Source of the DNA: a virus
Virus record (IMG/VR): IMGVR_UViG_3300008050_008111
Span: 1-29,433 of that record
Direction: 5' to 3' (one strand)
DNA: 29,433 nucleotides
The notes beneath the pieces are model-generated. The model saw only the letters and a program-made list of their open reading frames with translations. It was not told the DNA's origin and did not search any database. The translations under genes were made by a program, and so were the position numbers. Shown piece by piece: positions 19,870 to 28,029 of the stretch. The first letter of the stretch is position 1, and every line of letters begins with the position of its first letter.

Positions 19870-20889
19870 TTAACTCCAATTTGTTTCACAAACAGTTTCT
19901 GTAATCAATTTTGTAACCATATAAGGGTCGCAATTTGCATTTGGGCGCCTATCTTCAATATAGCCTTTACCATTTTTCGCAACTTGCCAAGGAATTCTTA
20001 CAGAAGCGCCTCTGTCTGAGATACCCCACTTATATTCCCTATAAGAACAAGTTTCGTGATCACCAGTTAGTCTCTTTTCAATATCTGCGCCATAATTCTT
20101 GATATGGTGGTGCGCTCGTTCTCCTAAAGCCACCGCTGCTCTTTCACAAGCAGCTAAAGAGTTTCTCATTTCTTTTGTTGAAAAATTAGTATGACATCCA
20201 GCGCCATTCCAATCTCCTTCTGCTGGTTTTGGCTCAAAAGAAACAGCCAGTTCGTGTCTTTCTGCAATTCTGTGAAGTAACCAACGAGCAATCCATAATT
20301 GGTCAGAAGCTTCTATAGCGTTAACAGGACCAATCTGGAATTCCCATTGTCCCGGCATTACTTCGGCATTAATGCCTGATATAGTCAATTTTGCTTCCAA
20401 ACAGGCATCTAAATGTTCTTCTACTATTTCTCTACCAATCGCTCTTCCTGACCCAACACTACAATAATATGGACCTTGTGCTGCTGGTTCATATCCATCT
20501 TTCAGACAATAATCTAGCCCATAAGATGTATTGTTCCAGCGATTAACAAAGGTATATTCTTGCTCCATTCCAAACCATACGTCTTCAGATTTATTTTTTT
20601 CATATACTTTGCATAAATCTGCTCTTGTGTTCGATTCGTGAGGTGTCATATCTGTGTTTAGTACCTCACATAACGCTAATTCACCAGACCAACCTCGAAC
20701 TGGATCAGGACAAATATATACTGGGTTTAGAACACAATCAGAATTCGAACCTTCTGCTTGGTTGGTGCTAGAACCATCAAATCCCCAAATTGGTATTTCT
20801 TCGCCTTTGTTTATTATCTTAGTTTTCGATCTCAATTGTGGTGTCGGTTTTGTGCCGTCAACCCAAATATATTCTATCTTGCGATACAT
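19870..20889 (-). CDS. glnA: Type II (GSII) glutamine synthetase
   Basis: A 339-residue enzyme making glutamine from glutamate, ammonia and ATP. It matches the GSII class (plants, animals, some bacteria) rather than the longer GSI of most bacteria. Visible are YIWVDGTKP, IWGFDGSSTNQAEGSNSD, FGMEQEYTFV (E109, E111), VMPGQWEFQIGP (E183), NGAGCHTNFST (H233), GISDRGASVRIP and EDRRPNANCDPY (312-323), all typical metal, ATP and substrate residues, so activity is expected. The true start is the ATG at 20889 with AAGGAG 7-8 nt upstream. A 27-residue longer reading runs into the tmRNA and is rejected. The ATG lies 21 bases past the tmRNA 3' end, so both could share a transcript. Presence in a phage suggests nitrogen metabolism takeover. 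Confidence 0.96.
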   Translation of the reverse strand: MYRKIEYIWVDGTKPTPQLRSKTKIINKGEEIPIWGFDGSSTNQAEGSNSDCVLNPVYICPDPVRGWSGELALCEVLNTDMTPHESNTRADLCKVYEKNKSEDVWFGMEQEYTFVNRWNNTSYGLDYCLKDGYEPAAQGPYYCSVGSGRAIGREIVEEHLDACLEAKLTISGINAEVMPGQWEFQIGPVNAIEASDQLWIARWLLHRIAERHELAVSFEPKPAEGDWNGAGCHTNFSTKEMRNSLAACERAAVALGERAHHHIKNYGADIEKRLTGDHETCSYREYKWGISDRGASVRIPWQVAKNGKGYIEDRRPNANCDPYMVTKLITETVCETNWS

Positions 20890-20910: not shown

Positions 20911-21227
20911 CGGTGGAGATGGCGGGAGTCGAACCCGCGTCCAAAAACTATCAAAAACAACGTCATTCACAAGATTAGTCAGTTATTTGAACTCTGACAA
21001 ACACAAACCCTGCATGCGCGTACCACTTGTTTTGTAAAACTCGAAAAACAAGAAAACTTGCCTAGCTTCTTTAATGAAGTGCTAGAAACTCCAGATTACG
21101 CAGCTAGTGCGTAATCAAACTCAACATTATCGTTGGCGTTTATAAAGGTTTGAGCATTTTTACTGTGTTACTCACACAGTCTTGCACGTTTATTTTATTC
21201 TTCCTCTGTCGAAACCGTTTCATCCCC
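20911..21227 (-). ncRNA. ssrA: Transfer-messenger RNA (one-piece)
   Basis: The 5' end GGGGATGAAACGGTTTCGACAG pairs with the 3' end CATCTCCACC to give the 7-bp acceptor stem with the G3-U wobble that makes tmRNA an alanine acceptor. The T-arm is GCGGG-TTCGACT-CCCGC. Between them are an ACTGTGT/ACACAGT hairpin with a TGAG loop that can pair with CTCA downstream (PK1), the tag ORF, CTAGC/GCTAG and CAAG/CTTG stems, and a GTCAG/CTGAC stem, fitting PK2-PK4. The outer P2 pairing AACGT/ACGTT plus CAAGA/TCTTG is also visible. The encoded 3' end is ACCG, so CCA must be completed after transcription. The first 33 nt overlap the 3' end of the CDS at 21195-21581. Confidence 0.96.
21096..21137 (-). other. 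tmRNA proteolysis-tag reading frame (ANDNVEFDYALAA)
   Basis: Thirteen sense codons from GCC at 21137 to a TAA stop at 21096-21098 encode ANDNVEFDYALAA. The tag begins with the Ala resume codon and the common AND start, and ends in the ALAA degron read by ClpXP-type proteases. TATAAAC directly precedes the resume codon, as in other tmRNAs. The length and the VEFD middle differ from the 10-residue E. coli tag. Confidence 0.93.
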
Positions 21228-21581
21228 ATTCTCAAAGAAGGATTCCGTCTTATATTTCTTAATATAACGATTGAAATCCATATAATCTACTCCAAGGAAC
21301 CTAGCTGCTTCAGATTTGGTCCTTGCTATACTTAGTCCTGTCTTTAGAAGAGCATCTGTGACTGTATGTCTAGTTATTCTCCATAAAGGCATTCCAAAGA
21401 ACTTACCACTAGTATATCTTGTTGCTAATTCTAATTTAATGGCTATTAAGTCTTCTAAAGCTATATTATTAATATTATCTAAAGTACTATTGGTTATTTT
21501 ACCTTCAGTCTTAAGTTTATTAACAATACTATACTTGTCGTATTTAGTAGTTTTTCTTCTTCTTTTAGGTTTCCAAGTCAT
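21195..21581 (-). CDS. Small helix-turn-helix-like protein overlapping the tmRNA
   Basis: A 128-residue protein. The first ten residues are basic (MTWKPKRRRK). Residues 87-110 (ARTKSEAARFLGVDYMDFNRYIKKY) look like a Fis/NtrC-type helix-turn-helix (xxSEAARFLGVxxxxFxRY), so DNA binding is likely. Its final ten codons and stop (GDETVSTEEE) coincide exactly with the first 33 nt of the tmRNA on the same strand. The start ATG at 21581 lacks a clear ribosome site. The 71 bp upstream are very AT-rich and may carry a promoter. I cannot assign a named family. Confidence 0.75.
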   Translation of the reverse strand: MTWKPKRRRKTTKYDKYSIVNKLKTEGKITNSTLDNINNIALEDLIAIKLELATRYTSGKFFGMPLWRITRHTVTDALLKTGLSIARTKSEAARFLGVDYMDFNRYIKKYKTESFFENGDETVSTEEE

Positions 21582-21652
21582 AAGTCTAATTTAAACTATT
21601 CTAGAATATATGATACAATTTTACTATAATTTATATTGTTAATTAAAGAGAT

Positions 21653-25884: not shown

Positions 25885-28029
25885 CTAGGGAGTACTTTTT
25901 CCGCCGCAAGCTGTTTCATCAAGTATTTCTAAAAGATTTACATACATATCTATTGCCTGCATGGTAAGCTCATATAACTTGCCACCAACGCCAGCCAGCG
26001 TAAGTGCTTTATAGTTGTCCGCGTAAAGACCAGCCCCGTTTACTAAAAAGCTTGCGGTGAACACATAGACAGCTAAATCATCAGCAGCATTAATCATATT
26101 GACTAATATATCTTCCGTGATATCAGGTGTCAAATAAGTTTGTCCCTCTTCGTCGGAAAATAAAATAATTACATGCTTTGCATCTGGTCTCCAACTGATG
26201 TTCCATTGTTCTTTTGGGGGAATCGATTCAGCTTGCGAATTCCATCCATTTATCCAGCTTAAGTCAGTTAGCTGATATGGCAAATTTAGCGCTCCTACTA
26301 GATTGTGGATAGCTAAATATATTGCGTCATAGTTTTGTTCGTCTCCACCGCCAAGATTAAGCGCTGTTGAAGCAAACGCTCCTATGAATGTTTGGAAATC
26401 AACAAGATCTGTCTGCAATATAACTCTTTCATTCCAACTACCCGGTCCTGTAGCTGCTGTAAACACTAGTCCCCACTTTATAACATCAGAATCGCTATAA
26501 TATGCGGCAAATTGATTTAGAGCCGACATCACAGCGTTTATTTCTTCTACCATAGAGCCGGAAAGATCTACAATAAAAAGTATATCAGTCGGCTCTAGTT
26601 TCTTATCTTCATCAATTTTACCATCACAATTAGTATCTGTACCATTACATATATCTTCTAGTTCTGGAGTGACTTCCCCCAAACAAAGCTTATTGATGAA
26701 ATCATTATTATCATCATAATTGCCCCAATCGCCTTCAAAACAAGTCATTTCACCAGGGAGACATATACCAACTAACATTGTTTCAGCAGGACCACTGTAA
26801 CACATAGAGAACAAGTTTTCATCTATTTGCTGATTACAATTATCATCGTGATTGTTACATTCTTCTGGTTTGATCTCGCCTAAATATTTATCGCAGGTAG
26901 TACCAGGAGGCAATGTTTGTGGCATCCAATGGCAAACAGCCAAACATTCAGTTAGCTGCAACGTTGTACAATTTGGGTCATTGGGATCAGCACATTCACA
27001 CGTCTTATATCCTGCACCACACACAAGAGGATTTTCTTGACAAGGAAATAATGTTCCTATATCATTAATGGTGCAAAGACAGTCTAGATTTTCATCAACT
27101 TTTCCATCACAATCATCATCTAAGCCATTGCAAACTTCTACTGCTGGTTGTTTTGCTGTACAAATCCAGTTACCACCAACACAATATTGCAAATTTGTCT
27201 CACAGTCTGTAGTACATTCATCAATTAGATCTTCATCTATTAAGCCATCACAATCGTTATCAGCGCCATCACATATTTCTTCTTCCAAAGGACCGCATTT
27301 TCCACAAGCATTTAGCTGTCCTTCATCAATAGCACCATCGCAATTATCATCTAAACCATTACATATTTCTTCTGGCACTTTTCCACAAGTACCACAAGCA
27401 TTAGCTACACCATCATCAATAAGACCGTTACAATCATTATCAATATAATCGCATACTTCTTCTGGAAGATCCCCGCATTCTCCACAAGGATTAGTAACAT
27501 TTTCATCTATTAGACCATCACAATCGTTGTCTTTACCATCGCAGATCTCTGTAACACATTCAGTTTTACAGTCTGTATATTGTATTTGTCCCTTGTTACA
27601 AAGTTTATCTTTAATACCGGGATATCCATCTTCAGTTGTGCAGGGAATATTTGCTTCCAAGACGAGTTGAGCAGGATTACATTCTAAGTGTTCTTCACAC
27701 GCCCCTTCGTATACTACTGTGGGAGGGTCATCGCAGTTGTTAATACAGATTTGTTTCTGCCAGACAGCATCTAAGTTGCCGCAAAAATACCAAGCGCATT
27801 CAACGCACGGATCTGTCCAAACAGAATAAGTGTCTTCTTCAATCTCTTCTATTATTTCAGTTATATCTTCAGGAGTAGCATCAGGTTCAGAAGTGTCGGC
27901 TATGTCTAGAGTATCTTGGGTGTCGTGATTGCCAGAAAGTCCATCTTTATTATTGTCGCAAGAAACCACAGAAAGTATACCAAACAAGATTATTACAAGT
28001 TGTAGTAGCATTTTCTTAAGACGGTTCAC
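25885..28029 (-). CDS. Large lipoprotein with MopE-type DNDCDG repeats and a von Willebrand A domain
   Basis: A 714-residue secreted protein. MNRLKKMLLQLVIILFGILSVVSC is a lipoprotein signal with Cys24 lipidated; Asp25 at +2 would favour inner-membrane retention under the E. coli Lol rule. An acidic Asp/Thr/Glu-rich linker (25-70) follows. Seven copies of C(D/N)xxD(N/D/T)(D/N)C(D/N)(G/Q)xxD(E/D), the MopE metal-binding motif, begin at 163, 193, 223, 253, 300, 391 and 461; the first four are spaced exactly 30 residues. A VWA domain runs from 482 (DILFIVDLSGSM, MIDAS D488/S490/S492) to about 705. Such architectures are typical of Myxococcota-like envelopes. The start is GTG at 28029, 8 nt after GAGG. 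Cys content (over 50) implies a disulfide-rich ectodomain. Confidence 0.9.
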   Translation of the reverse strand: MNRLKKMLLQLVIILFGILSVVSCDNNKDGLSGNHDTQDTLDIADTSEPDATPEDITEIIEEIEEDTYSVWTDPCVECAWYFCGNLDAVWQKQICINNCDDPPTVVYEGACEEHLECNPAQLVLEANIPCTTEDGYPGIKDKLCNKGQIQYTDCKTECVTEICDGKDNDCDGLIDENVTNPCGECGDLPEEVCDYIDNDCNGLIDDGVANACGTCGKVPEEICNGLDDNCDGAIDEGQLNACGKCGPLEEEICDGADNDCDGLIDEDLIDECTTDCETNLQYCVGGNWICTAKQPAVEVCNGLDDDCDGKVDENLDCLCTINDIGTLFPCQENPLVCGAGYKTCECADPNDPNCTTLQLTECLAVCHWMPQTLPPGTTCDKYLGEIKPEECNNHDDNCNQQIDENLFSMCYSGPAETMLVGICLPGEMTCFEGDWGNYDDNNDFINKLCLGEVTPELEDICNGTDTNCDGKIDEDKKLEPTDILFIVDLSGSMVEEINAVMSALNQFAAYYSDSDVIKWGLVFTAATGPGSWNERVILQTDLVDFQTFIGAFASTALNLGGGDEQNYDAIYLAIHNLVGALNLPYQLTDLSWINGWNSQAESIPPKEQWNISWRPDAKHVIILFSDEEGQTYLTPDITEDILVNMINAADDLAVYVFTASFLVNGAGLYADNYKALTLAGVGGKLYELTMQAIDMYVNLLEILDETACGGKSTP

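Follow-up and report, generated by a model that had tools for sequence, protein, structure and literature searches.

Results

A Coding Sequence Ends Inside a tmRNA Gene

The window analyzed was a linear virus record of 29,433 bp, and all of the genes of the locus described here lay on its minus strand. A one-piece tmRNA gene was placed at 20911..21227 by ARAGORN and Rfam RF00023, and its tag reading frame, ANDNVEFDYALAA*, was placed by ARAGORN at 21096..21137 (coding part 91-132 of the tmRNA). According to the ORF translation, a coding sequence (CDS) for an HTH-like protein of 128 amino acids occupied 21195..21581. The two genes shared 33 nt (21195..21227), in such a way that the final 10 codons of the CDS (residues 119-128) and its stop codon were nt 1-33 of the tmRNA, the shared codons being GGG GAT GAA ACG GTT TCG ACA GAG GAA GAA TAA. 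Codon 118 (AAT) of the ORF abutted G1 of the tmRNA exactly, and therefore an RNase P cut at G1 would leave 118 complete codons without a stop, a putative nonstop message covering 21228..21581. The initial annotation had described a tmRNA whose 5' end is embedded in the 3' end of a same-strand CDS, with 33 nt in common and the junction near residue 118, and this geometry was confirmed in full by ARAGORN, RF00023 and the sequence itself. The range it assigned to the arrangement, 21195-21581, matched the ORF but fell short of the tmRNA, which reached on to 20911.

The intergenic stretch upstream of the HTH-like CDS (21582..21652) was the likely promoter site for a shared transcript, with a consensus that was weak in this lineage. 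A glutamine-synthetase-like gene (PF00120/PF03951) was found at 19870..20889, 21 nt downstream of the tmRNA, and was replaced by another gene in the relatives L002 and L005. Elsewhere in the window, positions 25885-28029 encoded a 714-aa cysteine-rich protein with many DNDCDGLIDE-type repeats, unusual for a phage.

The phages concerned form a family of uncultivated marine bacterial viruses. Of 22 related records, 12 carried the T4-type capsid protein Gp23, which suggests that the group is T4-like; these records included one in which the HTH gene is followed by a tmRNA (G021) and two from a clade lacking the tmRNA (G010 and G013), and Gp23 was absent from the window itself, a fragment of 29 kb. 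The same 22 records yielded no SmpB gene. A search of 50,697 records of cultured phages gave no protein match to the HTH protein, to a diverged homologue of it or to the second gene family described below, and the genome contigs searched contained neither a homologue of the HTH protein nor a genome coding for the same tag peptide.

Both Overlapping Genes Are Genuine

To regard the overlap as an annotation artefact, either the ORF would have to be no gene or the tmRNA would have to be degenerate. Apart from the risk, common to all AT-rich DNA, that a long ORF is spurious, nothing spoke for this. The region of the ORF before the overlap gave dN/dS values of 0.05-0.11 against the diverged homologues L003 and L005, and homologues of the protein were found at 80 loci, so that, as judged from sequence comparison, the HTH-like ORF is a real coding gene. 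On the RNA side, ARAGORN called the tmRNA at 20912-21227 with the tag ANDNVEFDYALAA, and the Rfam match to RF00023 was full-length (21227..20911, model positions 1-374, 117.7 bits, E 1.1e-45). The covariance-model match and the tag frame were accompanied by an acceptor stem with 7/7 pairs, GGGGATG/CATCTCC in L173, which is identical to the window. All seven pairs were retained in every overlapping lineage, and the pairs covaried among the variants GGGGATG/CATCTCC, GGGGGCG/CGCCTCC, GGGGGTG/CACCTCC and GGGGACG/CGTCTCC. The artefact reading was consequently rejected with near certainty.

As a result of this covariation, the second codon of the overlap encodes Asp or Gly, whichever the RNA helix demands; the structure of the RNA dominates the stretch shared by CDS and tmRNA. 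At the other end of the molecule, the tmRNA of the window finished in ACCG (20911-20914), and hence its CCA was incompletely encoded. Many tmRNAs of the HTH family likewise lacked an encoded CCA (ACCG, ACTA, ACCT, ACTT), whereas ACCA was encoded in the second family.

The HTH-like protein gave a sub-threshold Pfam match to the winged HTH family HTH_29 (E 6e-4), and a homologue gave one to the Fis-type HTH_8. As all of these matches were sub-threshold, the label "HTH-like" is a guess; no match of the protein to a rescue-factor family was found.

The Overlap Is Conserved but Dispensable in the HTH Family

The initial annotation had proposed checking whether related phages keep the overlap, and some of them do: the HTH-family ORF entered the tmRNA by 33 or 39 nt in 19 IMG/VR contigs, which represented 14 distinct upstream sequences or lineages. 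A read-in overlap of the kind known from selB-selC, with a same-strand stop inside the RNA gene in several lineages, was thereby found, and sequence conservation of this extent indicates that the overlap in the window is not a chance single case. In relatives outside the overlapping group, the tmRNA lay 35-54 nt or 160-290 nt past the stop of the HTH gene, or farther away with genes between.

In a tree of the HTH protein built without the protein tail, all of the overlapping lineages fell within one part of 34 rows (support 89/74) and the outgroups were gapped, which suggests that the overlap probably arose about once in this family. It was retained over about 55% protein identity, and this could reflect selection for the overlap.

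The overlap was nevertheless dispensable in some relatives, with losses in at least three places inside the same 34-row part. L187 had lost it and had a 35-nt gap, with a stop before the tmRNA. It was also lost in L218 (= L007), the sister of the overlapping L176 (support 100/93), where a tRNA-Asn and a tRNA-Thr (anticodon AGT) had been inserted precisely at the junction of HTH gene and tmRNA (L044 5373-5522, on the contig of L007/L218) and the HTH gene ended with its own stop. In a clade of 18 rows (support 99/98), no tmRNA was found on the 14 contigs searched, all of them fragments, of up to 138 kb; on this basis the clade is taken to have lost the tmRNA.

A Second Gene Family and Some tRNAs Are Also Involved

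In a second group of related T4-like phages (L249-L318, e.g., L264, L274 and L254), the tmRNA was preceded by a different gene of 66-85 aa, whose product starts like MWKVYKWNGRFIQGDLIS and is unrelated to the HTH protein. Of 70 contigs, 52 had this gene overlapping the tmRNA, the shared stretch being 8 nt, 12-13, 27, or 37-49 nt long. All three frames were used, two of which do not end on a whole codon where the tmRNA starts. The four states (gap plus three frames) required 19 changes on the second-family tree, which was based on 63 columns and had many weak forks. Within these limits, the overlap appears to have arisen repeatedly in the second family and to be labile.

In the 8-nt overlap the stop codon is a TGA at tmRNA nt 6-8. 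This TGA was present in 18 of the 20 lineages read in that frame and in 4 of the 30 others, an association that follows in part from the definition of the frame and was not significant when phylogenetically independent pairs, which were too few, were compared. The TGA was lost in several gap lineages nested among the readers (L270, L271 and L284/L306). Taken together, the sequence patterns suggest that, in lineages with a read-in tmRNA, it matters that translation terminates close to the junction.

With identical ORF criteria (upstream ORF of at least 60 aa), an upstream ORF overlapped 55 of 82 tmRNAs and 6 of 47 tRNAs in these loci, a comparison of non-independent samples that is biased by the choice of loci through genes adjoining the tmRNA. 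In four of the six tRNA cases, a conserved gene of ~85 aa preceded a tRNA-Asn and ended 10, 23 or 38 nt inside it, in more than one frame (L269 5309-5563, L297, L307 and L315). A further 29 IMG/VR tmRNAs, located by pattern matching and confirmed by ARAGORN, yielded just two overlaps of at least 8 nt, both with short ORFs that are unproven. Since tRNAs are also read into and overlap is rare in other tmRNAs, read-in appears to be a trait of this phage group; judged by these ORFs, it is not special to the tmRNA, though commoner there than in tRNAs.

The tmRNA Promoter Is Found in Gap Lineages

Promoters were scored with an E. coli sigma70 matrix, which may not suit phage-specific promoters. With this matrix, a strong sigma70-like tmRNA promoter was detected about 20 nt before G1 in seven of the eight distinct lineages with gaps of 35-54 nt, mostly TTGACA-17-TATACT or TATATT (median score 12.9, median shuffle p 0.005). 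In contrast, the best site within 90 nt was not above chance in the 14 overlapping HTH lineages (median score 5.2; median p 0.37 vs. dinucleotide shuffles and 0.37 vs. synonymous shuffles), nor was one detected above chance in 44 overlapping second-family lineages (median p 0.30). Around the junction, promoter-like sites were not enriched in the window, and the RNA fold there reached a z of only -1.6, which is uninformative. The simplest reading of the promoter in gap lineages and its absence from overlapping ones is that the tmRNA promoter disappeared when the two genes were joined, which left the tmRNA dependent on the upstream transcript. This distribution supports, at the sequence level, the premise of a shared transcript on which the initial annotation relied, and the HTH gene and the tmRNA would thus be co-transcribed.

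Upstream of the HTH gene, a promoter was strong in L208, L210 and L213 and weak in L173, whose protein is identical to that of the window. In the second group, TTGACA-17-TACACT was followed by the HTH gene, at least one small gene and the tmRNA, closely packed. In seven lineages (L226, L227, L230, L233, L236, L239 and L247), a conserved TTTGTGACAATCACT-like block and repeats of TAATCACT lay between this strong TTGACA-17-TACACT and the HTH gene; they may form an operator, possibly one bound by the HTH protein. A TATCAT-like motif was also conserved ~20-35 nt before the HTH start codon (window 21582-21652 and many relatives), in overlapping and gap lineages. The T4 late-promoter motif TATAAATA occurred 9 times in the window (4.7 expected); upstream of the HTH gene it was exact only in L210 and L213, and elsewhere it was not above shuffles.

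Discussion

The reading that we favor, with a probability of roughly 0.6, is mainly compaction of the genome, with regulatory effects tolerated as a by-product, that is, a read-in overlap of an upstream gene and a functional tmRNA and not a dedicated conserved switch. The recurrence of the overlap with different genes and in different frames looks like repeated packing of the genome. Under this model, the spacer holding the stop of the upstream gene and the tmRNA's own promoter would have been lost, so that the upstream ORF would now terminate at a stop codon supplied by the tmRNA, which would probably be transcribed from the promoter of the upstream gene. Maturation of the tmRNA 5' end by RNase P is established; for this locus, we infer the cut, the nonstop message and its tagging. 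The precursor would have two possible fates. If a ribosome translates to the stop inside the tmRNA, the full protein would be made; if RNase P frees the tmRNA at G1, a nonstop mRNA without the last ten codons and the stop would be left, and ribosomes at its 3' end would be rescued and tagged by the tmRNA together with host SmpB, such that the nonstop by-product would clear itself. Because the stop lies inside the tmRNA and the cut would fall at G1, each transcript would end up as a tmRNA or as an mRNA that can be translated, and one transcript probably gives the full protein or the mature tmRNA, not both. The reasoning of the initial annotation, that RNase P maturation would remove the stop of the ORF, is consistent with the position of the TAA at tmRNA nt 31-33.

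The premise of a shared transcript would fail if the tmRNA promoter lay inside the 3' part of the ORF and was not recognised by the matrix; transcription would then be separate, and the overlap would be packing at the DNA level. T4-like phages use modified promoters, and the Gp23 records suggest that these phages belong to that group. In addition, several overlapping lineages have a TATAAT/TATAAA-like hexamer ~21 nt ahead of the tmRNA. This hexamer, however, is explained by the conserved codons Lys-Tyr-Lys/Asn, also occurs in the tmRNA-less clade and is broken in L175 and L193, and the scores do not exceed those of synonymous shuffles, all of which makes an internal promoter rather unlikely. 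Another explanation attributes a purpose to the nonstop message: RNase P would deliberately generate a nonstop HTH mRNA, the tmRNA would tag the 118-residue protein for proteolysis, and the full-length protein would be seen only at times of limiting RNase P or tmRNA capacity, in a manner resembling arfA of E. coli. The geometry, with a codon boundary exactly at the expected cut, would suit such a loop, as would the missing tmRNA promoter in the overlapping lineages, the retention of the overlap in 14 distinct lineages and the higher frequency of overlap in tmRNAs than in tRNAs. A loop specific to the HTH gene is, however, disfavored by the second, unrelated gene, which overlaps the tmRNA in three frames, two of them without a whole-codon boundary at the cut, and by the tRNAs of the same phages, which are likewise read into. 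An obligatory loop, which the initial annotation expected a stop before the tmRNA in related phages to disprove, is at odds with exactly such stops in the close relatives L187 and L218, the latter nested among overlapping lineages, and with the clade missing the tmRNA. A dedicated loop of this type is therefore improbable.

The most far-reaching version of the idea would have the phage tmRNA wired in cis to the preceding gene, with each maturation event making a nonstop message. The result would be a self-limiting switch between tmRNA output and a DNA-binding protein, either one excluding the other, with synthesis of the protein mainly under rescue overload, the coupling having been rebuilt by selection several times with different genes. 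We regard this, too, as improbable.

These loci provide natural, repeated cases of a single RNA serving both as the end of an mRNA and as a structured RNA. What makes them more unusual still is that the overlapped RNA is the cell's own remedy for messages lacking a stop. RNase P processing as a gene switch becomes testable in this setting. If the reading frame of a gene is truly linked to the 5' nucleotides of the tmRNA, this would be an unusual coding constraint on a structured RNA. The findings also suggest that gene and RNA callers that forbid overlaps between CDS and RNA would truncate such genes or miss them altogether.

No report of a CDS overlapping the 5' end of a phage tmRNA was found in the open-access literature, and no discussion of CDS/tmRNA overlap was found in the accessible part of the 2025 tmRNA database paper. 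The Methylophilales phage Melnitz carries a two-piece permuted tmRNA with a glutamine riboswitch (PMC9004378). It resembles the present phages as a marine phage with its tmRNA in an operon with other phage genes, and differs in that the tmRNA here is one-piece and that no CDS overlap is mentioned in the available part of its description.

The closest demonstrated nonstop loop under tmRNA control is that of arfA of E. coli, in which a nonstop mRNA arises via RNase III or termination and expression is repressed by trans-translation (PMC10107115). The likeness lies in an RNase-made nonstop mRNA, which here is deduced from the sequence; in contrast to arfA, the enzyme would be RNase P and not RNase III, the tmRNA is encoded in cis, the tagging is putative and the product is only HTH-like by sub-threshold matches.

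The closest precedent is selB-selC of Alphaproteobacteria and some Gammaproteobacteria, in which selB has the tRNA-Sec gene nested in its 3' end or overlapping with it, and for which a nonstop mRNA arising from RNA processing was proposed, with protein and RNA as alternatives (Mukai, 2021; PMC8124441). Both systems have a same-strand CDS that extends into a tRNA-like RNA, with the stop inside the RNA in some lineages; the overlap is retained in many lineages, relatives regained a stop before the RNA, and a nonstop mRNA has been suggested. Unlike in selB-selC, the upstream genes described here have no known link to the function of the RNA. Relative to that system, the novel points are that the overlapped RNA is a tmRNA, the very molecule by which nonstop messages are rescued, that the genomes are viral, and that two genes and three frames are involved.
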